NCBI RefSeq assembly: GCF_014191715.1
Contig: NZ_JACHWY010000001.1
Coordinates: 62,001 to 126,000 of the forward strand
DNA length: 64,000 nucleotides
Reading direction: 5' to 3'
Source: Litorivivens lipolytica
GTDB taxonomy: Bacteria; Pseudomonadota; Gammaproteobacteria; Pseudomonadales; Spongiibacteraceae
Below are positions 1,575 through 21,278 of the stretch, piece by piece; position 1 is the stretch's first letter, and each line of letters starts with the position of its first letter. A model generated the notes under the pieces. It worked only from the letters and a program-made list of their open reading frames with translations, did no database searches and was not told where the DNA came from. Both the position numbers and the translations under genes were made by a program.

Positions 1575-2039
1575 ATGAAAATTGCAAACAACTGCGTCGT
1601 CTCCTTCCACTACACACTGACGGATGAAGACGGCCAGACGCTGGACAGCTCTGAAGGTCGCGATCCGCTGGCCTATCTGCACGGCCACAATGGCATCATC
1701 CCCGGCCTGGAAAACGAGCTGACTGGCAAAGAAGCCGGTGACGCGCTGCAGGTTGTGGTTCAGCCTGCTGACGGTTACGGCGAAATCAACCCTCAGCTGC
1801 TGCAACAGGTTCCTCGTGAAGCCTTTCAGGGTGTAGAAAGCATTGAGCCGGGCATGCAGTTCCAGGCTCAGGGCGAGGGCGGTCAGGTTCAGATGGTTGT
1901 CGTGCGCGAAGTGACTGACGAAGCGGTTCTGGTTGACGGCAATCACCCGCTGGCCGGTCAGGTGCTGAACTTTGACGTGAAGATTGATTCAGTGCGCGAA
2001 GCGTCTGAAGAAGAAATCTCCCACGGCCACGTTCACTGA
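1575..2039 (+). CDS. slyD: FKBP-type peptidyl-prolyl cis-trans isomerase SlyD
   Basis: A 154-residue SlyD-type prolyl isomerase and chaperone acting in the cytosol. The N-terminal FKBP half begins with the typical MKIANNCVV strand and is interrupted by the IF chaperone insert that includes the GYGEINP segment. The C-terminal tail is short and ends in HGHVH, unlike the long His/Cys-rich metal tail of E. coli SlyD, so nickel storage through the tail is probably weak. The ATG at 1575 is preceded by AAGAGG at a good distance. It is read in the same direction as the glucosylglycerate genes that follow 46 nt later, and may share transcripts with them. Confidence 0.93.
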   Translation: MKIANNCVVSFHYTLTDEDGQTLDSSEGRDPLAYLHGHNGIIPGLENELTGKEAGDALQVVVQPADGYGEINPQLLQQVPREAFQGVESIEPGMQFQAQGEGGQVQMVVVREVTDEAVLVDGNHPLAGQVLNFDVKIDSVREASEEEISHGHVH

Positions 2040-2085
2040 ACGAGCCTTAGGCCGCTGTGACTGATCGCAGCGGCTGCTCCTCTCT

Positions 2086-2841
2086 ATGCTGGTTGTATCC
2101 GACCTCGATGGCACTCTGCTCGACCACCATACCTACTCCTTCGAGCCCGCCAAACAAGCCCTGACCGAACTCGCTCATCGCAATATCCCCGTTGTGCTCA
2201 ATACGAGTAAGACGCGCACCGAATTGGTGCAAATACTCTCCGACTTACAACTGACAACGCCCTACATCGTCGAAAATGGCTCGGCAATCTACAGCGCCGA
2301 CGGCCAGCAGTGCGATGTGCTCGGCAAGCCGCGAGAAGTGCTGCTGAAGGCCCTCGATCAGGCTCGCGAGCAGGGCTTCAGTTTCCAAAGTTACCGCGAC
2401 TTCGGGCTGGCTGGCGTTATCGAACATACAGGTCTTGATCAGGCGGCGGCTGAAGCCTCACTTGCCCGGGAATTTACCGAACCGCTCATCTGGAAGGGCT
2501 CAGCAAAGCAGCGATCCAGTTTTGTGCATTGGATTCAGGCACAGGGATTGCAGTGTCTCGAAGGCGGGCGTTTTCTGCATGTGATGGGGCGCTGCGATAA
2601 GGGCGTGGCCATGCAGCGTTTGATAAAAACCTACTATCCTGAGAATGAGGGACCGGTTGTTGCGCTGGGCGACAGCGATAACGACACCGCCATGCTGGCG
2701 CGAGCCAATATAGCGGTCTGCATACGGCCGGCATCGGGTGAGCGGCTCGCACCTGCTACGCGGGGCACCATTATCCACACCGAGGCCTTTGGTCCGGAAG
2801 GCTGGGCAGAAGCGCTGAACGACATACTGAAAAACCGATAA
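2086..2841 (+). CDS. mpgP: HAD-IIB sugar-phosphoglycerate phosphatase (MpgP/GpgP type)
   Basis: A 251-residue haloacid dehalogenase phosphatase of the IIB subgroup, similar to mannosyl-3-phosphoglycerate phosphatase. Motif I is DLDGT with Asp6 as the nucleophile and Asp8 as the acid/base. Motif IV is GDSDND beginning at residue 195. The next gene makes glucosyl-3-phosphoglycerate, so the likely job here is to remove its 3-phosphate and release glucosylglycerate, an osmolyte. The family assignment is strong. The glucosyl rather than mannosyl substrate is inferred from the partner gene. The gap to the synthase gene is 18 nt, which indicates an operon. Confidence 0.85.
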   Translation: MLVVSDLDGTLLDHHTYSFEPAKQALTELAHRNIPVVLNTSKTRTELVQILSDLQLTTPYIVENGSAIYSADGQQCDVLGKPREVLLKALDQAREQGFSFQSYRDFGLAGVIEHTGLDQAAAEASLAREFTEPLIWKGSAKQRSSFVHWIQAQGLQCLEGGRFLHVMGRCDKGVAMQRLIKTYYPENEGPVVALGDSDNDTAMLARANIAVCIRPASGERLAPATRGTIIHTEAFGPEGWAEALNDILKNR

Positions 2842-2859
2842 CACAAGGAACTCGACGGC

Positions 2860-4089
2860 ATGGGCGATTTTTATCAGGGCGGAATGGTTGCAACCCTGCA
2901 CAATCTGGTTGACCGGCCGCTGGAAGATTTGGAAGCAGATCTAGTGGAGTTTTCTAAGTCACGTCCTATGACGCTGGTATTGCCCAGTCTCTTTTCCGAG
3001 CTGAGAGCTCAGGCGCTGGAAGACATCATTCAGCATCTTCGCAAGGTGCCTTACCTGAGTGAAATTGTGATTGGCCTTGATCGGGCCGACGCGGAAGAAT
3101 TTGCCGAGGCAGTCAAGTATTTTGGGCGACTGCCACAACACCATCGCATACTCTGGAACGACGGCCCGCGTCTGAAAGCGCTTGATCGGCGTCTGCAGGA
3201 TGAGGGGCTCGCACCACAGGAACCCGGAAAGGGGCGCAATGCCTGGTATTGTCTTGGCTATGTGTTGGCCTCCGGCCGGGGCAAAGCGATCGCGCTTCAC
3301 GATTGCGATATCGTCACCTACGAACGCCTGCTGCCAGCGCGACTGTTTTATCCGATTGCCAATCCCGGCTTCAGTTATGAATTCTGCAAGGGCTACTACG
3401 CGAGAGTCACGGATACCAGTATCAATGGCCGGGTCAGTCGACTGCTGGTTACCCCGCTGGTGCGCTCTCTGAAAAAGATCTATCCCAACACCGATTATCT
3501 CGATTACCTGGACAGTTTTCGCTATCCCTTGGCCGGTGAGTTTTCCATGCAGGCAGATGTCGTCGGTGACCTGCGCATCCCCAGCGATTGGGGGCTGGAG
3601 ATTGGTCTGCTGTCAGAGGTGTATCGCAACTATTCCAGCAACCGATTGTGTCAGGTGGATATTGCGGATCGTTACGATCACAAGCATCAGGACCTGTCGG
3701 AGCACGATGACGGCGGTGGTCTGTCAAAAATGTCGATTGATATTACCAAGGCCGTTTTCCGCAAACTGGCCATCAATGGCGCGGTGTTCTCAAATGAAAC
3801 CTTCCGCTCCATCAAGGCAACCTACTATCGCACCGCCCTGGATTTTGTAGAGATGTACTACAACGACGCGCGTATGAATGGTTTGAATCTGGATATTCAC
3901 CGGGAAGAGCAGGCGATCGAACTGTTTGCTGCGAACATTGTGAAAGCGGGCAATATCTTTCTTGAAAACCCTATGGAGACGCCCTTTATCCCTAGCTGGA
4001 ATCGGGTGGTTAGCGCGATCCCAACGATACTGGAGGATCTGAAAGCAGCCGTCGAGGCCGACCGCGAGGAGTTCGCCGGGCGTGAATAG
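2860..4089 (+). CDS. gpgS: glucosyl-3-phosphoglycerate synthase (GT81)
   Basis: A 409-residue GT-A glycosyltransferase of the GpgS type. It transfers glucose from a nucleotide sugar to 3-phosphoglycerate, the committed step to glucosylglycerate. The metal-binding DxD signature is HDCDIV with Asp148 and Asp150, after a [10 protein letters not shown] segment typical of the family. The start ATG at 2860 follows an AAGGA ribosome site. The 3' end overlaps the next gene by 8 nt. Mannosylglycerate synthases are the main alternative, but the overall sequence fits GpgS better. Confidence 0.88.
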
Positions 4090-5815
4090 TCGCAGTGACC
4101 TGTCCCTCCTGCAGGCGACCTTATTGAGTCAGCTCGGGTTTCTTTACGGAGAGGACCGAGCCGACAGCTTGTGTAAAGAGGTTGTCGAGCTATTCAGCTT
4201 CAATGAGTCAACCGAAGGGCCGCCTCCCTTCAGCAATCACTGGGATCAAAATGATGTCTGGGTGATCACCTACGGCGACAGCATTCAGCGGGAACCCGAC
4301 CCTCCACTTCAGGTGTTGAAGCAATTTCTCGACAGCCATTTGCAGGGCGTTGTATCTGGCGTTCACGTGTTGCCGTTTTTCCCCTACAGCTCAGATGATG
4401 GTTTTTCTGTTATCAACTATGCGGAAGTGAATTCTTCGCTAGGTGACTGGCAGGACATCGAAGCGCTGGCGCGCAATTACAGTCTCATGGCCGATTGCGT
4501 GATCAATCACTGCTCCAGTCGCAGTCTCTGGTTTGATAACTTCAAAAAAGGCGAGGGCATCGGTTCGGATTATTTTTTCGTGGCGTCGCCAGACGACGAC
4601 TTGAGTCAGGTGGTGCGGCCACGCACCAGCCCCTTGCTGCGCGAAACCGAAACCGCCGATGGCATAAAGCATGTCTGGTGCACCTTCAGTCACGATCAGG
4701 TCGATCTGGATTTTCGCAATCCGAAGGTACTGATGGAGTTTCTCTCCATCATCAAACTCTACATGGGTCGAGGCGTTCGCATCTTCCGTTTGGACGCCAT
4801 CGCCTTTCTCTGGAAAGTGGCGGGCACAAATTCATTGAATCTGCCGCAGACCCACGAAGTGGTGTGCTTGATTCGAACGGTTACCGAGCACTACCGCAAT
4901 GACACGGTGATTATTACCGAGACCAACATTCCAAACCGGGAGAATCTCAGTTACTTCGGCAACGCCAACGAAGCGCATGTGGTTTACAACTTTTCCCTGC
5001 CACCACTATTGCTGCATACGCTGTTAAGTGAAAACTGCAGCTACCTCAAAAACTGGCTGATGAGTATGCCGCCGGCGCAATACGGAACGACTTACCTGAA
5101 TTTCATTGCTTCGCACGATGGCATTGGTTTGCGCCCAGCAGAAGGTTTGCTGAGCGATGAGGAATTGTCGCAGGTGGTGAAAACGATAGAGGGCTTCGGC
5201 GGCAAGATTTCCTGGCGTGCTCTGGAGAACGGCGAGAATCGCCCCTACGAGTTAAATATCAGCCTGTTCGATGCGTTGAAGGGAACTCATGATGGCGAGG
5301 ACGACTTTGCTGTCGAGCGTTTTGTGTGCGCACACAGCATCATGTTGGCACTGGAAGGCATTCCGGCATTTTACATTCACAGTCTATTCGGCACCCGCAA
5401 CGACTATAGGCGTCTGGAAAACACCAGTCACAATCGTTCGATCAATCGGCATCAGTGGCAGTGGCACGAGCTGGAGTCAGCCTTAACAGAGGAGGGGATT
5501 CACAAAGCGGTGTTTGAACGATTGCAGTTCTTGATCAAACTGCGCCGCACCCAGCGGGCCTTTCATCCCAACGCGACTCAGTACACTCTGCATATCAATG
5601 ATCAGGTATTTGCATTCTGGCGTCAGAGTGCGGACCGACGCCAGAGTATTTTTGCCTTGCACAATATTTCACGGCAGCCGCAGCACATTAGTCTCACCCA
5701 GTTAAATCTGATTGCCACCAATGACTGGTTTGACCTGATCAGTGGCGAGGATATGTCTGATCTTAAGGGAAGTATTGAACTGGCGCCTTATCAGTGTTGC
5801 TGGATCAGTAATTAA
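4082..5815 (+). CDS. GH13_18 sucrose phosphorylase-like enzyme, probable glucosylglycerate phosphorylase
   Basis: A 577-residue alpha-amylase superfamily protein of the sucrose phosphorylase subfamily. The predicted nucleophile is Asp238 (FRLDA), the acid/base is Glu280 (ITETN) and the third carboxylate is Asp346 (SHDGIG). The GTG start at 4082 overlaps the end of gpgS by 8 nt, so the two are translationally coupled. GH13_18 enzymes phosphorolyse alpha-glucosides. Members acting on glucosylglycerate are known (for example E. coli YcjM), and here the gene sits with the synthesis genes. It therefore most likely recovers glucose-1-phosphate and glycerate from the osmolyte when salt stress ends. 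Sucrose or glucosylglycerol are the alternative substrates. Confidence 0.82.
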
Positions 5816-5822
5816 ATTCAGA

Positions 5823-6428
5823 CTACGGATCGTTAATCTCCTGCTCAATCCAATCCCTTAGCCCCCGATAAGCTAATCGTACACGGTCTTTGTCGCCCGT
5901 GACCATCATGTCCAGCGTCAGTCCGCTCATGGTGCCTCGAGCCAGTGTCGCTAGCTGACTGGCGCGCTTGGGCGCTACGCCTTGGCTTTTTATCGCTTCA
6001 GTCAGCGTTTTCAGGTATTGCCTTGTACCGTCTGCCATATTAGGTGCGCCGCCTGGGCTCGCGATTTTTCCTGATGCTTCCATACTCATGCGCAGAAAGC
6101 CGAGGTAGTTCGCACTGGATAGCTGTGCCCAGCTATCGTCGAGCATGCCCAGCGGGTCGTTGGCAAAATCCGCCGCGCGTTTTTCACCTCGCTCTACTTC
6201 CTGCTGCTGAATGCTGCCAAGGATAGTCTGGATCATTTCGTCTTTGCTGCCAAAGTGATGCAGCAGCGTTCTATGACTGATACCCAAGGCCTCAGCCATC
6301 GGTCTGATGGCGAGATTGGTCAGGCCGTGCTGCAGCAGGTAGGCAGTCGCCTTTTCCAGAATTTCCTGTCGGCGAGCCTCATGGCGCGTGGAGCGTCCAT
6401 CCATTTTTGCGGTGTCGGTCTCTTCCAT
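5823..6428 (-). CDS. TetR family transcriptional regulator
   Basis: A 201-residue one-component repressor. The N-terminal TetR helix-turn-helix lies near residues 38-62 (LAIRPMAEALGIS then RTLLHHFGSK), followed by an all-helical ligand domain with little conserved sequence. It is divergent from the GH20-TonB-hydrolase operon, the usual arrangement for a local repressor. A near-perfect 16-bp palindrome at 6602-6617 in the shared intergenic region, repeated at 14078-14093, is the likely operator. An alternative start nine codons in (MDGRST) cannot be excluded. The inducer is unknown. Confidence 0.9.
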   Translation of the reverse strand: MEETDTAKMDGRSTRHEARRQEILEKATAYLLQHGLTNLAIRPMAEALGISHRTLLHHFGSKDEMIQTILGSIQQQEVERGEKRAADFANDPLGMLDDSWAQLSSANYLGFLRMSMEASGKIASPGGAPNMADGTRQYLKTLTEAIKSQGVAPKRASQLATLARGTMSGLTLDMMVTGDKDRVRLAYRGLRDWIEQEINDP

Positions 6429-6601
6429 TCTGATCTTTCCAACCCTCGCGTTTTCGCTCTTTGGTACAGGTATCGCCGAAGCGAGCGCTATACCTTGATG
6501 ATTTAATTGAAATTACCGAAATAGTAACCGTAAAGCACTGGCCCTGTCGCGCTCTGCAGCCGCCCGTGATCCAGGGGGTATTGTCGCTATTCAATTATAT
6601 A

Positions 6602-6617
6602 TGTACCATATGGTTCA
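6602..6617. promoter_or_regulatory. candidate TetR operator in front of the GH20 operon
   Basis: TGTACCATATGGTTCA is a 16-bp inverted repeat with one mismatch pair, 25 bp before the GH20 start codon. A possible promoter, TTGTCG at 6581-6586 and TACCAT at 6604-6609 with 17 bp between, would be covered by it, which fits repression. The same half-sites occur in front of the hydrolase gene at 14049. Confidence 0.6.
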
Positions 6618-6641
6618 TTATAAGTAGAAGCGAGATTCTTC

Positions 6642-8915
6642 ATGTCTCAGTTTATTACCGTGGACAAAAATCGATGGCTGCTATTTTCGTCGCTGGCAAT
6701 TAGCGTCTTACTGGTCGCAGGGTGCTGCTCACCGAAATATTCGACCCCGCTTTATTCAGGTGTTGTGGGAGGAGGCACTGGACAAGGCCACACCCCGGAC
6801 GAGGTGGTAGTGATGCCGATGCCGCGGTCTATGCGCACGAGTGCTGGTACTATGATTTTGCCTGGCACTATACGCGTATCGACGCCGCAAACGCGATCGG
6901 GCCGATTACAACGCGCCGTTGATCGATGGGCTGCGCAGGTCGGCACTCAGAGTGGAACATCATTGTCAGTATCCTGGGCTGAGGAGGCGACAAAAGGATC
7001 GCATCTGTCCTTGGTGGTCGCTGAGGAAAGCAATCGTTATCCGGATTTAGATGCCGACGAAAGCTATCAGCTGACCGTTACCGATGACGGCATCCTGCTG
7101 AAGGCGAGTAATGACGTAGGGGCACTTCGAGGTCTGCAAACCCTGAGGCAATTAGTCACCGAGCGTGAGGGCACGCTGCAGCTGCCGACGGTAACTATCG
7201 ATGATTCACCCCAATGGGCATGGCGCGGCATGGTGCTGGATACCGCACGACATTTTATGCCGGTGTCTACCGTAAAGCGGCTGCTTGCGGGAATGGAGAT
7301 GGTAAAGCTGAACGTGCTGCATCTTCACCTCAGCGATGATCAGGGCTTTCGCGCGGAGAGCCGGGTGTTGCCCAAACTACATGAAGTAGGCAGCGGTGGA
7401 GATTATTACACTCAGTCGGAAATAACCGAACTGGTGGAGTATGCGGCTGATAGAGGTATTCGTATCGTGCCGGAATTTGGACTGCCGGGCCATAGTCTCA
7501 GTTGGCAGGTCGCCTACCCTGAATTGCGTGTCGACGGTTTGCCAGACCCGGTATTGGGGGAATGGAGCAGTAGCCTCTTTTCTCCACCGATTAATCCCGC
7601 CAAAGAAAAATCCTATGAGCTGATCAACCTGTTGGTCGCTGAGATGGCGTCGCTCTTTCCGGATCACTACTTTCACATTGGCAGTGACGAAGTGAATACA
7701 GCGCCCTGGAAATCAGACTCCTCCATTCGGGACTTCATGAAAGCCAAGGGTCTTCGCTCTGTTGATGCCTTGCACAGCTACTTCGCGCAACGATACGCAT
7801 CAATGGTTGCCGCGCACGGAAAATTGCCCATCGCATGGGAGGAGGCTGTTCATCCAGAAGATACAGCGGAACCCTTACCCTTTGCGGTTCAGTTATGGTT
7901 GGATGGTGACTATCCCCCAGCCTTTGCCTCGGCTGATATTCTGATGAGTCGCAACTACTATCTGGATCATCAGCAGCCGGCCTGGTGGCTCTATCAGCAG
8001 AAGCTTACCGATTTTGAAGTGGAAGGTATTTCTGATGTGGCGGAGCAGGGAGCCCCGCGCATTTTGGGGGCTGAAATTGCCGCATGGTCCGAGCATGTGG
8101 ATCACGATACGCTGGATATTGCCGTCTGGCCTCGCAGTGCGGCGTTGGCCGAACGGTTCTGGTCGCAGCCATCTCAGCTATCTAAAGGCGCGGTTACCTT
8201 TTATCGGCGCCTGGATGTGGTCAGTGAGCGGCTTGTACGACTGGGGATGCGCCACAAGGAAGCAACAGAAAATTATCTGGCTGAGATTTCTGAAAGAGAT
8301 TTGGAAGCATTGACTACCTTCGTAGATGCGCTAGAACCAGCAGGTTACTACTACCAGCGAAGCCGCAAACGTCTATTGCGCTTTGTGGCCTCGGCTATTT
8401 TCCCTTTTGTCGAGCCGCCGGCGTATGCACTGGGCGATGTGGATCGTCTGATCGACCATTTGCCTGCCGAAAGCCAGGCCGCTAGGCAGTTCGCGATAAA
8501 AACTGAGCGTCTGTTGAGCGGAGATAACCGTGTTTATCCTGAACTGCGCGAACAACTGCTTACCTGGGAAGCCAGCCATGATCGGTTGGCGCCCTTGATC
8601 GAACAATCCGATGCTTTACGGCGCGATGAGCTGCAGTTCGTTACTAAGACCGTTAGTGAGATTGCCGCGATCGGCTTGCGTGCGCTCGACTCGCTGGCAA
8701 AGGGTGAACCACTGGGGTTTATTGAGTATTACCGGCTATCCAATCGCTTGGACGACTTTGAATACGGCGTATTCAGTTTCGACAACTACGGTGAAATGGC
8801 CAATGGCGTGTTCCGACCGGATCCCCTGCAGCAACACAATATCGCAATTCAGCCGGCCGTCGCACGACTGGTTTACGCGGCGAGAAATCAAGCTGCTAAC
8901 GTGCAGGCAGAATAA
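6642..8915 (+). CDS. beta-N-acetylhexosaminidase, GH20 lipoprotein
   Basis: A 757-residue lipoprotein hexosaminidase. The lipobox LVAGC puts the lipidated cysteine at residue 28. A GH20b-like N-terminal domain covers roughly residues 55-190. The TIM barrel follows from about 194 (WRGMVLDTARHF), with the catalytic Asp349-Glu350 pair in HIGSDEV. About 230 residues after the barrel are helical and not typical of the minimal enzyme. It should release terminal GlcNAc or GalNAc from glycans at the outer membrane or in the periplasm. It starts an operon with a TonB receptor 14 nt downstream, which suggests that the released sugars or oligomers are then imported. Confidence 0.92.
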   Translation: MSQFITVDKNRWLLFSSLAISVLLVAGCCSPKYSTPLYSGVVGGGTGQGHTPDEVVVMPMPRSMRTSAGTMILPGTIRVSTPQTRSGRLQRAVDRWAAQVGTQSGTSLSVSWAEEATKGSHLSLVVAEESNRYPDLDADESYQLTVTDDGILLKASNDVGALRGLQTLRQLVTEREGTLQLPTVTIDDSPQWAWRGMVLDTARHFMPVSTVKRLLAGMEMVKLNVLHLHLSDDQGFRAESRVLPKLHEVGSGGDYYTQSEITELVEYAADRGIRIVPEFGLPGHSLSWQVAYPELRVDGLPDPVLGEWSSSLFSPPINPAKEKSYELINLLVAEMASLFPDHYFHIGSDEVNTAPWKSDSSIRDFMKAKGLRSVDALHSYFAQRYASMVAAHGKLPIAWEEAVHPEDTAEPLPFAVQLWLDGDYPPAFASADILMSRNYYLDHQQPAWWLYQQKLTDFEVEGISDVAEQGAPRILGAEIAAWSEHVDHDTLDIAVWPRSAALAERFWSQPSQLSKGAVTFYRRLDVVSERLVRLGMRHKEATENYLAEISERDLEALTTFVDALEPAGYYYQRSRKRLLRFVASAIFPFVEPPAYALGDVDRLIDHLPAESQAARQFAIKTERLLSGDNRVYPELREQLLTWEASHDRLAPLIEQSDALRRDELQFVTKTVSEIAAIGLRALDSLAKGEPLGFIEYYRLSNRLDDFEYGVFSFDNYGEMANGVFRPDPLQQHNIAIQPAVARLVYAARNQAANVQAE

Positions 8916-8929
8916 TAAGAGGCGCAGAT

Positions 8930-11356
8930 ATGACTAAAAATAATCTTCAGATGTTAGCCCGTTTACCAGCGTTTACGATGTCGATGCTGTTTTCAACGGT
9001 CATGCAGTTTGCGTGCTTTACCGCTAACGCGCAGGAAGCCCCCGTTGAGAAAGAGGCGTCGTCGGAGAACGGTGGTTTACCGGAGACCACTAAATCCGGG
9101 CTGGTTATCGAGGAAGTCTACGTCACGGTATCGAAACGCTCTGAGTCCTTGCAAAAAGTACTTGGCTCGGTTTCTGCGCTGTCGGGAGAAACGCTGCAGG
9201 ACAACAACGTTCAAGATTTTAATAGTCTGGTGGAGCTGATCCCCGGCGTGGTCGCTCAAGATGAACAGAAGATAGCGATTCGTGGGATCAGCCGAACCCG
9301 CAATGGACCGTCGCCGGTGTCGTTTCATGTGAACGATGTCTTTATCGGATCGCAGGGCGCCGATATTCGGGGTGAACCGTTTTACGATCTCGGCGCCATT
9401 GAAGTGGTGCGCGGACCGTCGGGAACCCTGTTTGGCCGCAACTCCACCGCAGGCGCCATAAATGCAAAGTGGCGTGCGCCCGAACTGGAATGGGCAATCG
9501 GTGGCGATATTCGCTATTCCTCACTTACAGAGAGTCATGCGCGGGCTTATATCAATATTCCTCTGCTTGGCGAAGATAACCCGCTTCTGCTGGGCCGCAT
9601 AGCGATGATCAAACGCGAGTCTGAAGGTACACTCGACAATCTGTTGACGCTGGATAGTGATGATCCGGGCAACATTCGCGACGAGTTTGTACGTCTTTAT
9701 CTCACCAGTGAGCCCACAGACAATGTTCAGATCGGATTGCGGGCGATTCGCTATGAGAGCACGCCCCGCGAGATTCCCTTTGTCGGTAGCCCCTCTTTAG
9801 CAACACGCCGCAGCGGTGTACTGGAAGAGCTGGGCGCGCAATCACTGCCAGAGGATCTGACAAAGGTTCGCTCGCGTGTCAGTGACAATTTTGGGTTGTC
9901 CTCGTCTGAGTTCACCCGCATCGATGGTGATATCAGTTGGTTGTTGGAAAGTCTGCCGGTACTGGGTGACGTTGAAATGGTGCTGGTCGGTGGCGAAATG
10001 CGCCGTAAACAAGCAGAAACTTATGATGTAGACGGTACCGAAGAACCTATTCTGGAAGGTGTTTCTCTGCGGCCCAATGATGTGCGTCGCACGGCGGAGC
10101 TGCGTTTTGCTTCGCAGAACGACAGTGGCTTTGACTGGTTGTTTGGACTGTTCTGGTTTGAACAGATTGTGGATCGGGATAATTTTGTGCTGGCCAGAGC
10201 CTTTGTGAAACCTTCTGATTTGGGCGCGCCGGCCTTGCCGGGAGAAACTTCCATCATCGTTGATGTTGAAGTCAATACGCCCGGAGAGGAATTGGAAGAT
10301 AAGAGCTCCGCCGTTTTCCTGAATCTGGATATGGATCTCGCCGAATTGTTTAACGGGCCTCCCGTTGAGCTGACAGTTGGGTTACGCCGCAATAGCGATG
10401 AGTTCACACTGCGCACTCCCCAGAACGATATCATCGCAAAAACCCCGCTGGGCGCAGTTTTTCCTGTGACAGAGCAGCGGGATGGATTGCAGTTCGCCGA
10501 GTTTGACGAAACCACTGGAGAGCTGGGCGCGCGCTGGTTTTACAGTGAGGCAGGGATGGCGTATCTGAAATATGCGCGTGGGTATAAACCGGGATTGGCC
10601 CAGACGATTGAGAAACTGGATGGCAGTATTATTCAGAATCCCGTTGACCCTGAGTTTATCGACGCCTGGGAAGCCGGCTTGAAGACGTCCTTTTTTGATC
10701 GCACGCTGCAATTTAATGCAGCGGCCTTTTACTACGACTATCAGGACCTACAGGTTTCGCAAATTACTCCGGGCGGCATCATTACTGAAAATGCCGCATC
10801 CGCCACCATTCAGGGATTTGAAATAGAAACCCAGTGGACACCGACTGCGTCCTTGTTTATTCAAGCCAGTGCAGCCTGGACTGATGCGACCTACAATGAC
10901 TACTGCGGTACCGATGAAGGACGGCTGGCACCTGACTCACCCGAGCCGGGCTGTACAGACAAAGCCCCGCTGGATTTCTCGGGCGAGCGCTTGACCGCAG
11001 CCCCCGAGTTTTCGGCGGTGCTACTGGCAAATTATCTGATCTACCTTGGTGACTGGGGTACCTTGACGCCGTCACTGAAAATCAGCTGGAGTGATGATCT
11101 GGACCGGCGTGGGGTGGGTAATCCGAATGATCATGTGGTGGCACACAGCACCAGCGATTTCCGCCTGACTTGGGAAAGTCCTTCCCAGCACTGGAAGGTG
11201 CAGGGCTTCGTTGAAAACCTCGAAGGCAGTGCCAACGACGATATCTTCTTTTCTGCATTTACCCCTGTGGCCATTGGCGCGGAGCAACCTACGTTCAGTT
11301 TGTTCAATAATATTCCGCCGCGACTGGTTGGCCTATCTGTAGAAGCCCGATTTTGA
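8930..11356 (+). CDS. TonB-dependent outer membrane receptor
   Basis: An 808-residue TonB-dependent receptor. A signal peptide ending in ANA-QEA is followed by a TonB-box-like EEVYVTVSKR near residue 65. The plug domain carries the ELIPGV and RGPSGTLFGRN hallmarks, and a long 22-strand barrel ends in a terminal phenylalanine (VEARF). It lies between the GH20 gene (14-nt gap) and an esterase gene (4-nt overlap), so it probably imports the substrate processed by these enzymes. Many receptors of this IroN/Fyu-like group take up large organic compounds rather than iron chelates. The ligand cannot be read from sequence. Confidence 0.93.
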   Translation: MTKNNLQMLARLPAFTMSMLFSTVMQFACFTANAQEAPVEKEASSENGGLPETTKSGLVIEEVYVTVSKRSESLQKVLGSVSALSGETLQDNNVQDFNSLVELIPGVVAQDEQKIAIRGISRTRNGPSPVSFHVNDVFIGSQGADIRGEPFYDLGAIEVVRGPSGTLFGRNSTAGAINAKWRAPELEWAIGGDIRYSSLTESHARAYINIPLLGEDNPLLLGRIAMIKRESEGTLDNLLTLDSDDPGNIRDEFVRLYLTSEPTDNVQIGLRAIRYESTPREIPFVGSPSLATRRSGVLEELGAQSLPEDLTKVRSRVSDNFGLSSSEFTRIDGDISWLLESLPVLGDVEMVLVGGEMRRKQAETYDVDGTEEPILEGVSLRPNDVRRTAELRFASQNDSGFDWLFGLFWFEQIVDRDNFVLARAFVKPSDLGAPALPGETSIIVDVEVNTPGEELEDKSSAVFLNLDMDLAELFNGPPVELTVGLRRNSDEFTLRTPQNDIIAKTPLGAVFPVTEQRDGLQFAEFDETTGELGARWFYSEAGMAYLKYARGYKPGLAQTIEKLDGSIIQNPVDPEFIDAWEAGLKTSFFDRTLQFNAAAFYYDYQDLQVSQITPGGIITENAASATIQGFEIETQWTPTASLFIQASAAWTDATYNDYCGTDEGRLAPDSPEPGCTDKAPLDFSGERLTAAPEFSAVLLANYLIYLGDWGTLTPSLKISWSDDLDRRGVGNPNDHVVAHSTSDFRLTWESPSQHWKVQGFVENLEGSANDDIFFSAFTPVAIGAEQPTFSLFNNIPPRLVGLSVEARF

Positions 11357-12255
11357 ATGTACGGAAATCGCCATCAGCACTCGCCTGCGGGTTAATCCTG
11401 CTGCTTACATTGGTTGCAGGTGCCCGAGCGTCTGAGCCTCAAGAAATCCCTTTGAGCTCAGTCGCAGAATTGCAGGCCACTAGCCCAGTGCCTGAATCGA
11501 GCTTGGCGTGGGGCGAGCAGCAGATCGTACGCAATGTGTCGTCTCCGGCCCTACTCGCCTTTCCTGCGGCACCCGAGGGCAACACCGGCATCTCGGTGGT
11601 TATCGCGCCGGGGGGTGGCTTTCGTTTTCTGGCCATTGATCAGGAAGGTACCGAGGTCGCACGGTGGCTCAATGCGCGGGGCATCAATGCCTTTGTCCTA
11701 AAATACCGGCTGCAACCCACGCCACGCAGTGATCTGTTGTTTAAAGCCGGGTTGATCTGGATGTTTGCGGGCGCTGCTATTAATGCCTGGCGTTCAGATG
11801 ACCAATTACCCGATCGCCCCTTCTCACCCATTCAAACGAAGGCGATTAGTGATGGCCTGAAGGCAATTGCCTGGGTGCGTGAGAACGCAGAGCAATGGAA
11901 TCTTCGCGTTGATTCCATAGGCATGCTGGGTTTTTCCGCCGGAGGTGCAGTTGCCTCCGGTGTCGCCAAGCAAGGCCGCGGTGCTGAACGTGCTGATTTT
12001 GTGGCGCTGCTATACGCAGTGCCGGCGGCAGGGGAGGTGCCCGACAATGCAGCGCCCCTATTTATAGTCACAGCGGATGATGACCCAGTGGTGCCTGCAA
12101 GCTGGTCACAGGCGTTGCATGAGCAGTGGTTGGCCGCAGGTCGGGAAAGTACCCTGATTCGATACCCCGAAGGTGGGCACGGTTTTGGTTTGAAACAACA
12201 GGGGATCGCCGCTGATCAATGGATAGCCCGGTTTCACGAATGGCTGATGCGCTGA
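11353..12255 (+). CDS. secreted alpha/beta hydrolase (acetyl esterase-like)
   Basis: A 300-residue hydrolase with an N-terminal signal peptide (cleavage near GARA-SEP). The nucleophile is Ser195 in GFSAGG. An oxyanion-hole GGGF segment lies near residue 87, and the likely acid and histidine are in ADDDPVVP and GGHGFG near the C-terminus. The family includes BD-FAE-type acetyl and feruloyl esterases that deacetylate carbohydrates. The start is a TTG whose bases overlap the TGA of the receptor gene (TTGA), so translation is coupled. Its gene ends directly against the convergent hydrolase gene with no spacer. Confidence 0.85.
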   Translation: MNVRKSPSALACGLILLLTLVAGARASEPQEIPLSSVAELQATSPVPESSLAWGEQQIVRNVSSPALLAFPAAPEGNTGISVVIAPGGGFRFLAIDQEGTEVARWLNARGINAFVLKYRLQPTPRSDLLFKAGLIWMFAGAAINAWRSDDQLPDRPFSPIQTKAISDGLKAIAWVRENAEQWNLRVDSIGMLGFSAGGAVASGVAKQGRGAERADFVALLYAVPAAGEVPDNAAPLFIVTADDDPVVPASWSQALHEQWLAAGRESTLIRYPEGGHGFGLKQQGIAADQWIARFHEWLMR

Positions 12256-14049
12256 TCAAGGCGCGCTGGTTTTGGTGTCTCTTACGACGGGCAACCAGAG
12301 CCTGCCCACCACGGTTACCGGCATAACGGTCGGTTCATGGCCATTTACCGAACCAGTGTAGGGGTATTGGTCGTGGCTGCCGTAAAGGAGAAGTGCTACC
12401 CGGTCGCCGGCCTGCAGGCGCTCGCCAATCCCATTCATCGAAATGCGATGCTCACCTGTCCCTCGTAGGGGGGTGATTTGATTGTCCGCCAGCTGCCAGA
12501 TACCGGGGTTATTTGCCCGCATAATGCCGATGCCCGCAAAGATAATCGGCACGCCGGTATCCGCTGGCAGAGCAGCCTGCAGAGTAACATCCAGTTCAGG
12601 TATTCCTGCCAAAACCTGATCGGCAGAATCGATCACCAGCGAAGGCTCAGCTACCACTGGAGCACCGCCAACACCGGCCAACACCGGGGTGGAGATGATT
12701 TCGATAGGCTGCCCCGCTTCTCCATGGACCACTGTGTCGAGCCAGATCGCGTCACCCTGATCCAGTGATACGCAAACCGGTTTTGGTAAAAAAGGCTGCT
12801 CTTTGCCAACACCTTTAAAATGTCTGTCGAAAAACGCCAGAGAGGTATCGTGCAAATCCCTCTCACCGCAATCACTGTTGTAGGAATTTAATGGCGGGCC
12901 TGGCTGCTCTGGATTAAACGGCACCGGACGCAAACCGGCATCGAGCACCACTGGCGTCGCGTTGTGACCGGACTGATGCGACATCAGATAAACCTCGCCG
13001 CCGGCATCGCGCATGCACTGATAGTTGTTGAAAGCCTCATTAAAGGTAAACAGCGTGTCACGCATGCCCTGAAAAAACAGCGCGTGCACCGGTGGTGGTG
13101 ACTCTCGAGCAAAAAGCGGTGGGAGCCCTGCGTTACTCGCGATAACCCGATCACCGCAGAAATAACTGTTACCGTGGTAGTAGAGAAAATCGTCCTGATC
13201 CTCTGTTAATGGACGACCACTCATCATGTCGACGAACAAGTCGGTGACATAGGGATCGGCGTGGTTACGGTCAAACTCCGACCCCGCCCTTGTCAGCGAC
13301 AACAGCAGAAAACTCCCCCACGTACTTTTGGCAACGCCGTTGGGCATGATGCTGTTGCGCATGTCGTACCAGGTGGATTCCGGCACGATAGCATCCAGTC
13401 GACGTTGCGGATCAATATTATTCAACAACAGCTGGAAACCACCGCCATAGGAGGCACCGATGGCGCCCAGCAGCAGGTTGTTGGGATCGCTGCCATCGAC
13501 TGAAGGGCCATAGGCCAACCAGTCCAGATTGGCTTCCACCCAGTTCAAAATAGCAATGAGGTTAAGTCCCTCATAATCCGGGTCCATCACCCGGATGGTG
13601 CCGCCAGACTCGCCATGGCCGCGTTGATCCATGCTGACTACACCGTAGCCGTTATCCAGAAACAGTTTGATATTGTCATTAAAAGGGCTGTAAACCAGTG
13701 CCGGGTTGTTTCTGTCAGTTGCGCGGCTATCGCCGCCGCCGTGGCCATACAGCAGGAGAGGGTATTTCTCTCCGCCTGTGAAAACCGAGGGTTCAAAGAC
13801 GGTAAACGCAATCACATCACCGGTTTGCGGCCCCTCTACGTAGATCGAGTAGGTTTTACCCTCGCGTGTTTCCGCTGCCGCAGGGCTTGCCGGAATCGTG
13901 TTGCTGTAGCCAGAGGCATCACGCGGAACCTCTGTATAGCGCGATGTCGCGCTACCGGACTCGATCTGCCCTTGTGATGAGCTACTGTCACGGCAGCCCG
14001 CGAGGCACAACGCAAAGATCAGCGTTAGTAGAATGTGGAAGGTCTTCAT
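12256..14049 (-). CDS. lipoprotein alpha/beta hydrolase (S15/CocE-like)
   Basis: A 597-residue lipoprotein (lipobox LAGC, Cys19). The N-terminal hydrolase core shows the oxyanion GHGGGD segment near 102, DQRGHGESGG near 141, and the nucleophile Ser200 in GASYGG. A C-terminal beta-rich domain from about residue 450 resembles the jelly-roll of X-Pro dipeptidyl peptidase/CocE enzymes. It is therefore probably an acyl-peptide or ester hydrolase at the cell envelope. It is transcribed toward the GH20 operon and carries upstream a copy of the same palindrome as that operon, so co-control by the TetR protein is likely. The substrate is unknown. Confidence 0.78.
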   Translation of the reverse strand: MKTFHILLTLIFALCLAGCRDSSSSQGQIESGSATSRYTEVPRDASGYSNTIPASPAAAETREGKTYSIYVEGPQTGDVIAFTVFEPSVFTGGEKYPLLLYGHGGGDSRATDRNNPALVYSPFNDNIKLFLDNGYGVVSMDQRGHGESGGTIRVMDPDYEGLNLIAILNWVEANLDWLAYGPSVDGSDPNNLLLGAIGASYGGGFQLLLNNIDPQRRLDAIVPESTWYDMRNSIMPNGVAKSTWGSFLLLSLTRAGSEFDRNHADPYVTDLFVDMMSGRPLTEDQDDFLYYHGNSYFCGDRVIASNAGLPPLFARESPPPVHALFFQGMRDTLFTFNEAFNNYQCMRDAGGEVYLMSHQSGHNATPVVLDAGLRPVPFNPEQPGPPLNSYNSDCGERDLHDTSLAFFDRHFKGVGKEQPFLPKPVCVSLDQGDAIWLDTVVHGEAGQPIEIISTPVLAGVGGAPVVAEPSLVIDSADQVLAGIPELDVTLQAALPADTGVPIIFAGIGIMRANNPGIWQLADNQITPLRGTGEHRISMNGIGERLQAGDRVALLLYGSHDQYPYTGSVNGHEPTVMPVTVVGRLWLPVVRDTKTSAP

Positions 14050-14077
14050 ATGAGCCTACCGATAACAAGATGCTATA

Positions 14078-14093
14078 TGAACCATAAGGTACA
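14078..14093. promoter_or_regulatory. second copy of the candidate TetR operator
   Basis: TGAACCATAAGGTACA lies 29 bp before the hydrolase start codon. Read on the other strand it aligns with the 6602-6617 palindrome, sharing both TGWACC half-sites, and the flanking TATAT stretch is also alike. Two matching copies in front of divergent units around one TetR gene support a common repressor. Confidence 0.6.
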
Positions 14094-14257
14094 CATATAT
14101 TGCCCGTCAATACCGTACTTAAACATCACCGACCAGAATGCCTGTTTGGTGGCAATATCGCTTCTGATTGATCATTCTTCCGCGTGAAATGAAGACTCGC
14201 ATCCGAATCATTGCCATAGACTTCTCGTGACTCACTACAGACGAACAGAGGCACGCG

Positions 14258-15748
14258 ATGGATGACGTACTGATTGTTGGCGCAGGAATTTCAGGCATTG
14301 GTATGGCCTGCCATCTGCGTATGAACTGCCCCGGAAAATCCTTCACCATTCTGGAGCGTCGTCAGCGAATCGGTGGAACCTGGGATCTGTTCAAATACCC
14401 CGGTATCCGTTCGGATGCGGATATGTTCACCTTCGGATACGGCTTTAAACGCTGGAAAAACCGCAAGATTCTGGGCAGTGCCGAGGCCATTCGTTCCTAT
14501 CTGGAAGAAGCCGCAGAAGAACACAGGGTTTCCGAGACAATCCGCTTCGGGCAACAGGTCACCCATGCCAGCTGGTCGAGTGAAACCTGCTGCTGGACGG
14601 TTACCACCAGAGATGAAGACAGCGGTGAGTCACTGGAATATAAAGCCCGTTTTCTGGTGATGGGCTCCGGCTACTACAATCATGACGCTGGCTATAATCC
14701 AGCGTTGCCCGAAGAAGAAGCTTTTGGCGGCCAAATCATTCATCCTCAACACTGGCCCGAAAATACGGATTACAGCAACAAAAAGGTCATTGTTGTCGGT
14801 AGTGGGGCTACGGCTGTGACTCTGGTGCCGGCTATGGCGAAAGATGCTGCCAATGTGACTATGCTGCAGCGATCCCCCACCTATATTATCTCGATTCCGG
14901 AACACGACCGGGTTTCTCCGCTGCTCAATATCTTTCTGTCCGAAGAGCGCAGCAATGAGCTTATCCGGGGCTTTTACATTCGCCTATTTGAAACCCTGTG
15001 GGGTGCTTCCCGCCGTTACCCCAAAGCCGTTCGCAAGTTGCTGATGAAGTTGGTTGAGCGCCAGGTCGGAAAGGAAAATATGATGCATTTCAATCCCAAG
15101 TACGACCCTTGGGATCAGCGGCTGTGTCTGGTTCCGCGCAACGATTTTTTCAAGGCTGTTCGTGCGGGTGATGCATCCGTAGAAACCGGCCATATCGAGC
15201 GCTTTACGGAGAAAGGGATTTTGCTGAAGTCCGGCAGTCATATTGATGCCGATATCGTGGTCAAGGCGACCGGGCTTGAGCTGCAAATGCTGGGCGGGGC
15301 GACGTTAAGCGTCGATGGTGTAGCAAAAGACGTCAGTGAACTGATGCAGTTCAATGGCGCCCTGATTCAGGATCTGCCGAATTTTAGCTGGATTTTTGGT
15401 TATGTCAGCTACCCCTGGACGCTGAAGGCCGACCTGGTGGCAAAGTATGTCTGCCGCCTGTTAAATCATATGGATGAAAAAGGCTACAGTGCGGCTATCC
15501 CTGTGGATGAACACGACTGCACCGTTCGAGACGCGCCCTTTATCGATGTGATCAATGCCGGCTATGTAAAACGTGGCCAGCATTGTCTGCCGCGTAAGGG
15601 TAGCCGTAAACCCTGGCTGGTCTTGAATGACTACCGTAAGGACTGCATTGATCTGTTGGAGAAAGCAATTGAGGTACCTGAGCTCAAGTTTATGCGTTTA
15701 TCCGTTGTAGGTACTACAAATGAGGAACAAACCCGTCAGGTTGCATGA
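14258..15748 (+). CDS. flavin-containing Baeyer-Villiger-type monooxygenase
   Basis: A 496-residue class B flavoprotein monooxygenase. The FAD-binding Rossmann motif is GAGISG at residues 8-13. The Baeyer-Villiger fingerprint FxGxxxHxxxW is present with Phe156, Gly158, His162 and Trp166. The NADPH-binding motif GSGATA is at 181-186. Such enzymes insert one oxygen next to a carbonyl to give esters or lactones, or N/S-oxidise. A second member with identical motif spacing is at 29784. It is upstream of, and convergent with, an AraC regulator gene. Confidence 0.88.
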   Translation: MDDVLIVGAGISGIGMACHLRMNCPGKSFTILERRQRIGGTWDLFKYPGIRSDADMFTFGYGFKRWKNRKILGSAEAIRSYLEEAAEEHRVSETIRFGQQVTHASWSSETCCWTVTTRDEDSGESLEYKARFLVMGSGYYNHDAGYNPALPEEEAFGGQIIHPQHWPENTDYSNKKVIVVGSGATAVTLVPAMAKDAANVTMLQRSPTYIISIPEHDRVSPLLNIFLSEERSNELIRGFYIRLFETLWGASRRYPKAVRKLLMKLVERQVGKENMMHFNPKYDPWDQRLCLVPRNDFFKAVRAGDASVETGHIERFTEKGILLKSGSHIDADIVVKATGLELQMLGGATLSVDGVAKDVSELMQFNGALIQDLPNFSWIFGYVSYPWTLKADLVAKYVCRLLNHMDEKGYSAAIPVDEHDCTVRDAPFIDVINAGYVKRGQHCLPRKGSRKPWLVLNDYRKDCIDLLEKAIEVPELKFMRLSVVGTTNEEQTRQVA

Positions 15749-15759
15749 GGATGCTTTAA

Positions 15760-15779
15760 AGCGCCTGTAAGCAGGCGCT
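15760..15779 (-). terminator. hairpin between convergent monooxygenase and AraC genes
   Basis: A perfect 8-bp stem AGCGCCTG/CAGGCGCT with a TAAG loop. It overlaps the AraC stop codon by two bases and is followed on the - strand by TTTAAAG, a weak U-tract. It may also stop transcripts arriving from the monooxygenase gene. Confidence 0.5.
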
Positions 15780-16860
15780 ACTTCTGGTTCTTGAATTCTC
15801 TGGGAGAGAAGCCTGTCCAGCTTCGAAAGGCGCGGCTGAAATTGCTGGCGCTGTCAAAGCCGAGCATATAAGCAATCTGGCTTATATTTTTCTTGTCTTC
15901 CTGAAGGTACTGTATCGCCAGCGTCTTCTTGATTCGGTTGACCAGCGAGCTGAAGCTCAGGCCGTCGTCATGCAAATGTTGTTGTAAGACGCGCTCACTC
16001 ATTCCCATTTGGCTCGCTACCTGCTTCAAGCTGGATTCACCTGTTGCCAAACCCTCCATAATCAGGCGTTCGCAGCGGTGAACAATGTTGGTTTGGCTGA
16101 TGGTCGCCATCAGTTCGATAACGAGTTCGTCGCTTTCTCGCGCAAGCTGCGGGTTGGCGCCCGGTAGCAAGGCTTTCATTACTGACTTATCGACTTCGAC
16201 CCCGAGAAAATCATTTCCTGCAACGACCGGCGCATCACCACCAATAGTCTCAAATTCTGCCAACACGTCGGGGTGTGGCTTACCGTAGAGATACATTTTC
16301 AATAACGGCACTGGGTCGCCGTAGACTTCCTGAGTTATACCGAAGGCTGAGTATCCAAAGGATTCGACAAGCAGATGAATGCCCTCTATACCTTTGAGTT
16401 GTTCCTGAAAAATCGACTCGTCCATTTTTATTCGGAGCAGGAAGCTGTTCTCAAGTTCTTCAATTTCAAGGCTGAATGCCGAGCCGACATAGCCGAAAAA
16501 ACGCTGCGCCCGCAGCACGAAGTCCAGCAGTGTACTGCTGCAGGAGAGTGCAAAGCCAAGCACGTTTAGATGGGTCAGGCGCATGTAACGGTAGAGCTTC
16601 AAGCCGATACAGGGGTCGCCCGTCTTTTCCCGGATGTGTTCCAACACTCGAATAACCGATACCAGCGGTACCCGATCAGTGGGGCTGTTAGTAGCCGGTG
16701 CATGAACATTCGCCTCAGCGAAAATGGTATCCGCATCCATACCGTGGCGCTGCAAAACCCACGATAGCAGCGTGAGGTGGTTGCTGGAGATATCTGTCAG
16801 CTGCAGGTTGCCAACGGCATTATTCTTTTTATGACCAGAGCCTGACGACTTGGTATTCAT
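15778..16860 (-). CDS. AraC family regulator with arabinose-binding-like domain
   Basis: A 360-residue regulator. Residues from about 45 to 225 match the long N-terminal ligand domain seen in OruR/ArgR-type AraC proteins. The last 95 residues are the double helix-turn-helix (first helix pair SLKQVASQMGMSERVLQQHL, second around ISQIAYMLGFDSASNFSRAF). Regulators of this subgroup often control lipid, steroid or amino acid catabolism. It is divergent from the membrane protein/START pair and convergent with a monooxygenase gene. Target and effector are inferred only from position. Confidence 0.9.
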   Translation of the reverse strand: MNTKSSGSGHKKNNAVGNLQLTDISSNHLTLLSWVLQRHGMDADTIFAEANVHAPATNSPTDRVPLVSVIRVLEHIREKTGDPCIGLKLYRYMRLTHLNVLGFALSCSSTLLDFVLRAQRFFGYVGSAFSLEIEELENSFLLRIKMDESIFQEQLKGIEGIHLLVESFGYSAFGITQEVYGDPVPLLKMYLYGKPHPDVLAEFETIGGDAPVVAGNDFLGVEVDKSVMKALLPGANPQLARESDELVIELMATISQTNIVHRCERLIMEGLATGESSLKQVASQMGMSERVLQQHLHDDGLSFSSLVNRIKKTLAIQYLQEDKKNISQIAYMLGFDSASNFSRAFRSWTGFSPREFKNQK

Positions 16861-16973
16861 CGCATTCTTTACCTCTGTAGTGCCATCAGTCTAGAACCAG
16901 AGCTGATTTGGATCAATGCGTGACGGTCATTCAACACCAGCTTGCCGCCATGCTCAATATAGTTAGGTGCTAA

Positions 16974-17002
16974 GCGAATGGTTTTCCTCCTGAAATGACA
17001 AC
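16974..17002 (+). promoter_or_regulatory. conserved upstream motif, copy 1
   Basis: GCGAATGGTTTT, six bases, then GAAATGACAAC, starting 137 bp before the membrane protein gene at 17111. The same two blocks with the same 6-bp spacing recur at 25134-25162, where 22 of the 23 block positions are identical. This is probably a binding site for a regulator shared by the two operons. Confidence 0.5.
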
Positions 17003-17110
17003 ATTGCTTGTAGCCGGCGGCATAAGATCATTTCACAGAGCCTGCCCGGGCTGTGATATAGGTCACGGTAGCGGTGGGGCAAGTACTTCGAGGGGAGAGG
17101 CAAGCAAACT

Positions 17111-17806
17111 ATGAATAATGCACATCTGAAGCTGTCTGCTTGGTCAGGCATTGTTGCCAGTGTTGGCATTGCAGTTGGTTGGATATTCCTGGCTAACTGG
17201 ATTCCGCCGAGTGATCCAGCTGCGACTGCAACGGAAATTGCAGCTTTTTATGGTGAAGATACCAACATGAAACGCTTTGGCTTGTTGCTTGCCATGACCT
17301 GTACCATTTTCCTGATTCCGTGGATGATCGCCACCTCCTGGGTTATTCGTCACCGTATGGGGTTCCCGATTTTGGCGGACATCCAGCTGGCTACTGGTAT
17401 TCTGGGTGTGGTTGCGACCATGATGATGTGGATGAGCTGGGGGTTAGCTGCTTTTAGACCTGAGCGTCTGCCGGAAATAACTCTGGCATTTCACGATTTC
17501 GGCTGGTTTAACGCCACCTGGTTCTATCCGGAGGCAACGCTGGAAGTGATTGTTATCGCCATCGCCGTACTGTCTTCCAATGCTAAGGAATCCTTTTACC
17601 CTCGTTGGTATGGCTACTTCCTGATTTTCATCGCTATGGTCAGCCTATCAGCCGGTTTGATGATCTTCTTCAAAAGCGGCCCCTTCGCCTACAACGGTCT
17701 GATTACTTTCTGGGTAACCTACGCCTGCCTGGTACTTTTCTTTATTATGGGAAGTGCGCTGCTTATTCGCGGGATCAGTAAATCCGAATCACGGGACATA
17801 CCATGA
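17111..17806 (+). CDS. six-helix membrane protein of unknown function
   Basis: A 231-residue integral membrane protein with about six hydrophobic helices (near residues 11-31, 56-78, 92-115, 143-160, 170-193 and 199-222). I do not recognise the family. A conserved-looking aromatic segment (FHDFGWFNATWFYPE) precedes the fourth helix and might line a site in the membrane. It is preceded by GGGGAGAGG and overlaps the START-domain gene by 4 nt (ATGA), so the two products are probably made together and work together, perhaps on a lipid-like molecule. Confidence 0.75.
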   Translation: MNNAHLKLSAWSGIVASVGIAVGWIFLANWIPPSDPAATATEIAAFYGEDTNMKRFGLLLAMTCTIFLIPWMIATSWVIRHRMGFPILADIQLATGILGVVATMMMWMSWGLAAFRPERLPEITLAFHDFGWFNATWFYPEATLEVIVIAIAVLSSNAKESFYPRWYGYFLIFIAMVSLSAGLMIFFKSGPFAYNGLITFWVTYACLVLFFIMGSALLIRGISKSESRDIP

Positions 17807-18456
17807 AGTTCACCGCTCTTATTTACATTCTCTTATTGTCACTACAGGTGCCCGGAGTGAACGCAGACGAAACAGCCTGGCGGCTGGAAAAAGACAGTGA
17901 TGGTATCCGGATAGAAACCCGACCTGTAGAAGGCTCGGCATATCGCGAAATTCGGGCTACCACTTCTATAGCAGGGCGCGTAAGTAGCATCGTTGAGTTG
18001 CTACAGGACATGAGCTACTGGCCGAAATTAAACAAGATAATCTCCTCAGCCGAACTGCATCAGCAGTTGAGTGAATCTGAGTCACAGTTGTATTTCCAAA
18101 TGGATATGCCGTGGCCTGTGACGGATCGCGACGTGCTGTATCACCGCACTATACGTCAGGATGAAAGTGATCATTCGGTTACCCTGACTGACCGCGCATT
18201 GACCGGCATTCTGCCAGAGAAAAATGGCAAGGTCAGAGTGGTTGAATCAGTGCAACAGTGGACGTTATCACCAAATAATCGAGGTGGTGTAGACGTGACC
18301 TGGATTACCCATACCGACCCAAACGGCCCCTTGCCGGCCAAAATGGTAAATTGGCTTTCTGTGGGGCCGCCTCATGAATCAATCAGTGTGCTTCGAACGG
18401 CTATTGAAGCGGGCGAATTCTCAGACGCGGAACCATCCTACGTAGTCGAACCTTAA
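17803..18456 (+). CDS. exported START-domain lipid-binding protein
   Basis: A 217-residue protein with a signal peptide (cleavage near VNA-DET) followed by a single START/SRPBCC domain. Recognisable features are the DMSYWPKLNK segment, the MPWPVTDRDVLYHR strand and the late ITHTDPNGPLPAKMVNW helix region. START domains hold sterols, fatty acids or other hydrophobic ligands in a cavity. Export to the periplasm and coupling to a membrane protein suggest a role in moving or presenting a hydrophobic substrate. The ligand is not known. Confidence 0.82.
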   Translation: MKFTALIYILLLSLQVPGVNADETAWRLEKDSDGIRIETRPVEGSAYREIRATTSIAGRVSSIVELLQDMSYWPKLNKIISSAELHQQLSESESQLYFQMDMPWPVTDRDVLYHRTIRQDESDHSVTLTDRALTGILPEKNGKVRVVESVQQWTLSPNNRGGVDVTWITHTDPNGPLPAKMVNWLSVGPPHESISVLRTAIEAGEFSDAEPSYVVEP

Positions 18457-18519
18457 ACGGCTTTATTTGCTGGGCCAATTACAATTAATCGCAACACTTG
18501 ATGATCTGGGTGACTTAAG

Positions 18520-19749: not shown

Positions 19750-19809
19750 GAACCTTCGCGTGGAGTCAAAGCTGGTGTTTCGGCGTTGTGTCGTAATCTG
19801 AATGATATT

Positions 19810-21252: not shown

Positions 21253-21278
21253 CACGGGAACGCCTTAGATTTCCCCTT

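Follow-up and report, generated by a model that had tools for sequence, protein, structure and literature searches.

A TetR-family gene and two copies of one palindrome at a GH20–TonB receptor–hydrolase locus of Litorivivens lipolytica: a predicted two-operator regulon

Gene content of the locus

Within the window (the whole 64,000-nucleotide stretch of Litorivivens lipolytica DNA analyzed here), a gene for a TetR-family protein is divergent from a unit encoding a GH20 protein, a TonB-dependent receptor and an esterase-like protein, and a gene for an S15-type hydrolase converges on this unit from the other end. The TetR gene (5823–6428, minus strand) encodes a putative repressor of 201 amino acids with the predicted recognition helix ISHRTLLHHFGSK. 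Its helix-turn-helix domain matches the Pfam profile TetR_N (PF00440, E-value 2e-08, 34.3 bits at a cut-off of 24), and an AlphaFold2 model, predicted without an alignment, is all-helical, with a mean pLDDT of 70.8 and a pTM of 0.57. The gap between the TetR and GH20 genes, measured from the first start codon of each open reading frame, is 213 bp (6429–6641).

The GH20 gene (6642–8915, plus strand) codes for a beta-N-acetylhexosaminidase-like protein of 757 amino acids that appears to be a lipoprotein (lipobox LVAGC, identified by eye). It has the GH20 catalytic domain (PF00728, 5.3e-83) and can be aligned with 6yhh (2e-80) and human Hex A (8.5e-70); the adjacent Asp-Glu pair of the family is kept (HIGSDEV aligned to HIGGDE and HLGGDEV). 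The receptor gene (8930–11356, plus strand), with the Plug and beta-barrel domains of TonB-dependent outer-membrane receptors, is followed by a gene for an esterase-like alpha/beta-hydrolase (11353–12255, plus strand), probably exported to judge from a signal peptide recognized by eye. This protein scores above the cut-off with Abhydrolase_3, BD-FAE and DLH, and its best NCBIfam match, AxeA1 (2.2e-32, acetylxylan-esterase-like), is under the cut-off of the model. The last gene (12256–14049, minus strand) encodes a S15/CocE-like hydrolase, by eye a lipoprotein, with a Peptidase_S15 domain (6.6e-21, above cut-off); its score with TIGR00976 (CocE_NonD), 32.1 bits, falls short of the cut-off of 66.3 and does not place it in the CocE/NonD family. 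Thus, the inventory proposed in an earlier note on this DNA, namely one hexosaminidase, one receptor and two exported hydrolases, is recovered by the domain searches, with the export signals read by eye.

Genomic setting

To the left of the TetR gene, four genes (1575–2039, 2086–2841, 2860–4089 and 4082–5815) are collinear in the genomes G014 and G015, and the neighbors differ thereafter; the gene at 4082–5815 is found in 19 of the 21 genomes of the family, including all 18 of the good ones. To the right, the segment 14170–31228 is 78% identical to, and collinear with, G014:C5:5720–22812 on a 32-kb contig, G014 being another genus of the same family; judging from this comparison, the segment is a shared accessory block. 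The module that extends from the TetR gene to the S15-type gene therefore appears to lie between a conserved cluster and an accessory block, and 76 bases separate its second palindrome (see below) from the segment of that block that was matched.

The left-hand genes (1575–5815) encode FKBP-type, HAD-like, glycosyltransferase-like (by reading) and GH13-type (Pfam) proteins, and together resemble a glucosylglycerate cluster. The 17-kb right-hand block (14170–31228) appears to be catabolic and encodes two FMO-like monooxygenases, an SDR, an acyl-CoA ligase, an Abhydrolase_3 enzyme, proteins with START and MPAB domains, a TonB receptor and two AraC regulators. Recombinase-like, Fic-like and transposase-like open reading frames (by reading) are present on the 32-kb contig of G014.

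Two copies of one palindrome

The 16-mers TGTACCATATGGTTCA (6602–6617) and TGAACCATAAGGTACA (14078–14093) are present exactly where the earlier note had placed them. Together they form the core of a 23-nucleotide inverted repeat, the first in the list of repeats for the 5.5–17.2 kb section (5500–17200); read toward the gene that follows, the first copy is TATATATGTACCATATGGTTCAT and the second TATATGTGTACCTTATGGTTCAT, with 21 of the 23 positions identical. The putative operator 1 (6596–6618, plus strand) is separated by 24 bases, counted from its core, from the ATG of the GH20 gene at 6642, and the putative operator 2 (14077–14099, minus strand) by 28 bases from the ATG of the S15-type gene at 14049; the distances of 25 and 29 bp given previously are accurate to within one base. 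The view that both units border the TetR gene has to be revised: the GH20 unit alone does so, and the second unit begins at the opposite end of the locus, at a distance of 7.6 kb. Considered as 18-bp palindromes, site 1 matches at 16 and site 2 at 12 of the 18 positions. Both copies are asymmetric in the same manner, with TGTACC on the left and GGTTCA on the right, and have the same orientation relative to the gene.

The pair is well beyond chance and unique in the genome. When the two 100-bp upstream regions were dinucleotide-shuffled 5000 times, no 23-mer match exceeded 18 of 23 positions (21 observed). When 49 upstream regions of the window were compared with one another (2352 comparisons), a single pair scored higher, which belongs to divergent genes with a common intergenic region. 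The 21-mer TATRTGTACCWTATGGTTCAT, which covers both sites, finds these two sites alone in the whole genome when up to three mismatches are allowed. The looser pattern TGWACC-N4-GGTWCA, for which the earlier note had suggested a genome scan, has 5 exact matches in the genome of 3,489,636 bases (3.49 Mb), and the other three are inside mechanically listed open reading frames. Counts with mismatches speak against this short pattern: with up to two, the window shows no enrichment (6 matches, against an expectation of 4.95), and with up to one, the genome contains 26 matches, compared to 12 for the backwards pattern. The shared asymmetry and gene-ward orientation could also be explained by duplication of a promoter segment, the 23-mers being a copy or a coincidence and having no operator function, but the uniqueness of the pair, the shuffles and the operators found next to TetR homologs (see below) make this explanation most improbable.

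Promoter prediction is weak, with one candidate, TTGACG-N18-TATGGT, overlapping site 2; promoter-like matches in the region are fewer than in shuffled sequences (3 vs 6.2), so the scan is uninformative. An ECF-sigma promoter reading of the GAACC element was considered and dropped given that no -10 element was recognizable by eye.

Relatives of the locus and its genes

The sets searched yielded neither an orthologous locus nor a second copy of the TetR-to-S15 module. At an E-value of 1e-12 or better, the TetR protein has no match among 389 other order genomes and 368 class genomes (at most eight candidates scored per genome), and the 20 other genomes of the family yield only weak matches (the best one with an E-value of 2.9e-7 and 25% identity over 152 residues). 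Viral contigs contain neither the exact 21-mer nor a relative of this TetR; phage records contain one partial match, covering 33% of the query. The other genes of the locus have relatives in different surroundings. Matches to the GH20 protein at 1e-70 or better are found in 8 of the 389 other order genomes, those in G050 and G035 being nearly full length (36–38% identity) with different neighbors, and a scan of the genome_contigs set detects 20 loci with 31–40% identity, 15 of which are titled Acidobacteria. Relatives of the receptor with 53–56% identity are present in 3 of 382 other order genomes, all within the family and with different neighbors, and those of the S15-type hydrolase, with 34–47% identity, in 26 of 382 other genomes.

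In the fetched surroundings of relatives that lack this TetR (11 S15, 30 GH20 and 8 receptor loci), the loose pattern is absent at zero mismatches. With at most one mismatch, nothing is found in the 11 S15 loci, the 10 GH20 loci from the order or the 8 receptor loci, and the 20 genome_contigs GH20 loci (324 kb) yield two scattered one-mismatch matches. Of the other TetR genes of the family (29 loci), the helix is readable in 14 and in none of these contains the SHR triplet discussed in the next section; the 29 loci yield a single one-mismatch match, which in L027 precedes the matched TetR segment by 386 bases.

Recognition helix and operator in distant TetR homologs

Because no orthologous locus was found, the binding question was addressed with distant TetR homologs. 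Plasmid records matching the window TetR number 45 at an E-value of 1e-5 and 100 at 1e-3, with at most 32% identity. From these, 27 homolog loci were fetched with their surroundings; the set is selected, not exhaustive, most near-duplicates being omitted (e.g., one of 26 Rhizobium records was taken) and four Streptomyces loci being included because they are close kin of L070. The L070 locus, from Streptomyces sp. NBC_01136, is the discovery case; 20 more loci were then fetched, bringing the set to 23, and after them four further ones.

The L070 protein has the helix VSHRMLIHYFGSK, and two exact TGTACC-N4-GGTACA palindromes are located between its gene and a divergent SRPBCC gene. The recognition-helix triplet of the window TetR is SHR, and all eight homologs with this triplet (L070, L121–L126 and L140; 22–31% identity to the window protein) have the motif, with one mismatch at most, no more than 160 bp upstream of the TetR segment that was matched. 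None of the 19 homologs without SHR (15 of the first 23 loci and the four further ones) carries it within 300 bp. In mononucleotide shuffles of the 23 loci, the share of trials with at least one such match ranges from 0 to 0.35% for each 300-bp region. The eight cases represent four lineages, Streptomyces, Pseudonocardia, Cupriavidus and Sphingobium; the five Streptomyces cases form one clade, with proteins 75–99.5% identical to L070, and the loci from the other three lineages, retrieved later than L070 with their helices still unread, all agree. In L136 (helix THK), a one-mismatch loose match lies 664 bases downstream of the TetR start. The homologs nearest to the window TetR by tree path (L068, L069 and L134) have neither SHR nor the motif, in a tree that is largely unresolved.

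The two-unit layout of the window recurs in a betaproteobacterium, Cupriavidus metallidurans CH34 (L125). Two copies of the operator are present, at 1406–1421 and 2651–2666; one copy, with one mismatch, is between the TetR gene and a divergent gene, and the other, an exact one, is separated by 53 bases from the likely ATG of a second transporter-receptor-like gene (function by reading), so that one TetR appears to serve two units here as well.

Since helix triplet and operator agree in the homologs, the window TetR very probably binds both palindromes, even though GGTTCA on one side of both window sites is one base off the TGTACC-N4-GGTACA of the homologs. A regulator of another type (LacI, GntR or AraC) might occupy the palindromes instead, the TetR gene being an unrelated neighbor. 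According to PMC5343134, ROK (NagC), GntR (NagQ) and LacI (NagR) proteins govern GlcNAc genes in Proteobacteria, and an AraC-type gene is present at 15778–16860 of the window. This alternative is nonetheless very unlikely in view of the distribution of the operator among the homologs (8 of 8 with SHR against 0 of 19 others); moreover, the AraC gene is part of the right-hand block, and the 32-kb G014 contig on which this block recurs has no exact loose motif, its one one-mismatch match being distant from both the AraC and the monooxygenase genes. That the AraC gene plays a direct role was also considered and dropped because no direct-repeat site could be recognized by eye.

A possible helix-to-half-site correspondence

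A second correspondence was noticed post hoc. All three homologs with the triplet SDR carry TGTAGC-N4-GCTACA, namely L130 (at 1356 and 1384, one exact and one with a mismatch), L131 (at 1392, with a mismatch) and L143 (at 1420 and 1447, both exact); the pattern was spotted in L130 and L143 and later found in L131, with L130 and L131 being close kin and the lineages few. There are no cross-matches: the SHR homologs lack TGTAGC-N4-GCTACA, and the SDR homologs lack TGTACC-N4-GGTACA. Perfect palindromes of the same 6-4-6 design with other half-sites precede the TetR genes of single homologs with SPR (TGAAAC, L142 at 1433), STR (TGACAC, L129 at 1469) and SGR (CGTAAC, L133 at 1421). Other SPR and STR homologs (L127, L128 and L132) have no such palindrome, and there are also perfect 6-4-6 palindromes that no rule accounts for (L131 at 1362, L135 at 1454 and L129 at 1401), so these single-case half-sites are weak.

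Taken together, these patterns raise the possibility, to which we assign somewhat less than an even chance, of a widespread TetR subfamily with a readable code, in which the 16-bp operator would consist of two half-sites of 6 bases separated by 4 bases, the half-site being determined by residue x in the S-x-R triplet (H, TGTACC; D, TGTAGC; and, in single cases, P, TGAAAC; T, TGACAC; G, CGTAAC). If this code is true, operators and regulons would be predictable from protein sequence alone, and the targets of many uncharacterized TetR genes could be predicted beyond a guess from the gene neighborhood. Such a recognition code would be a by-product of more interest than the locus itself.

Predicted regulation of the two units

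The same palindrome precedes each target unit, as in a local two-operator regulon. A dimer of the TetR protein (5823–6428) is predicted to bind both palindromes, each with the half-site TGWACC and a four-base spacer, and to repress the GH20–TonB receptor–esterase unit and the S15-type hydrolase gene, which start 24–28 bases downstream. Given that the sites occupy the expected promoter positions, bound TetR would block RNA polymerase; a small molecule, probably derived from the compound attacked by the exported enzymes, would release the protein, and uptake and breakdown would be switched on together. We consider it likely that one TetR represses the two units through the two palindromes in this ligand-released, local fashion. 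The regulatory half of the earlier reading, in which one TetR and two copies of one palindrome define a small regulon, draws good support from the homologs, where helix and operator agree. Weighing against this scheme are the 213-bp gap, the off-base in GGTTCA, the poor symmetry of site 2, the weak promoters, the nearest homologs without SHR or motif, and the failure to find an orthologous locus.

The protein could, alternatively, bind both sites and activate the units, or respond to another signal, e.g., a toxic aglycone rather than a nutrient. The ligands of TetR proteins are often hydrophobic molecules, not sugars, and the other-signal version draws on this fact. The gap bears on activation. 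In a study of Streptomyces TetRs (Ahn et al. 2012, PMC3511530), the divergent gene was repressed by each of the five that were tested with gaps below 200 bp, and at longer gaps three of the four did not regulate it and the fourth, AtrA, the sole regulator of its neighbor in this range, activated it; the TetR–GH20 gap, at 213 bp, falls outside this "200 bp rule". The operators of SGR6912 in the same source sat nearer its own gene. In our case, site 1 is close to the GH20 start, with 173 bases between it and the TetR start, and this position favors GH20 as the target. Furthermore, sites ending 24 and 28 bases before the start codons would overlap any promoter or lie downstream of it, where repressors usually bind, and we regard activation or a different signal as unlikely. 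If the repression scheme holds, a hexosaminidase, a receptor and two hydrolases would answer to a single signal through the two-operator regulon, in a genome with no recognizable NagA.

Substrate of the predicted pathway

The metabolic half of the earlier reading, a self-contained uptake and degradation locus for an acylated amino sugar, is weakly supported: the GH20 protein, the receptor and the hydrolases are there, but "self-contained" is too strong for a locus from which an inner-membrane transporter, a kinase and a NagA-type deacetylase are all missing. The genome (G000), which is 99.99% complete and in which the GH20 gene is present, has no match to TIGR00221 (NagA), whereas the same search gives matches in all 14 control genomes (7 over the cut-off), and no NagB above the cut-off (best TIGR00502 score 23.6 bits, cut-off 236.9). 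The nagA plus nagB combination of a Nag-type GlcNAc regulon was accordingly not found in this genome, so that the known route does not readily explain use of the GlcNAc released by the GH20 enzyme as a carbon source. In G008 and G020, receptor relatives are encoded beside GMC oxidoreductase, ThuA-like and sugar-isomerase-like genes (by reading), a neighborhood that hints at a sugar-related ligand.

Comparison with known systems

The predicted arrangement is similar to the TetR/tetA paradigm and to the divergent TetRs of Ahn et al. 2012 (PMC3511530), in that the TetR gene is divergent from an enzyme gene with a palindrome in the gap; it differs in that the gap is 213 bp, not below 200, and that a second site lies 7.5 kb away before a second unit. 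With the NagC, NagQ and NagR regulons (PMC5343134), it has in common the regulated glycoside-use genes in Proteobacteria, and TonB-dependent receptors are part of the NagR regulons in two species of Xanthomonas. Those regulators are ROK, GntR and LacI proteins with a nagA–nagB core, whereas the window has a TetR and the genome no NagA match and no NagB above cut-off.

The plasmid TetR genes with SHR from Streptomyces, Pseudonocardia, Cupriavidus and Sphingobium resemble the window gene in the triplet and in the TGTACC-N4-GGTACA palindrome before the gene. They differ in the divergent gene, which encodes an SRPBCC protein in Streptomyces and Pseudonocardia and an oxidoreductase in Sphingobium (both annotated), and a transporter-receptor-like protein in Cupriavidus (by reading). 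A TetR-family regulator of a glycoside hydrolase operon is known in UidR/GusR of E. coli; its PDB entry 6ayi matches the window TetR with an E-value of 8e-05, over residues 7–79 alone. A local TetR regulon with two operators is an ordinary type of bacterial switch, backed here by good comparative evidence.
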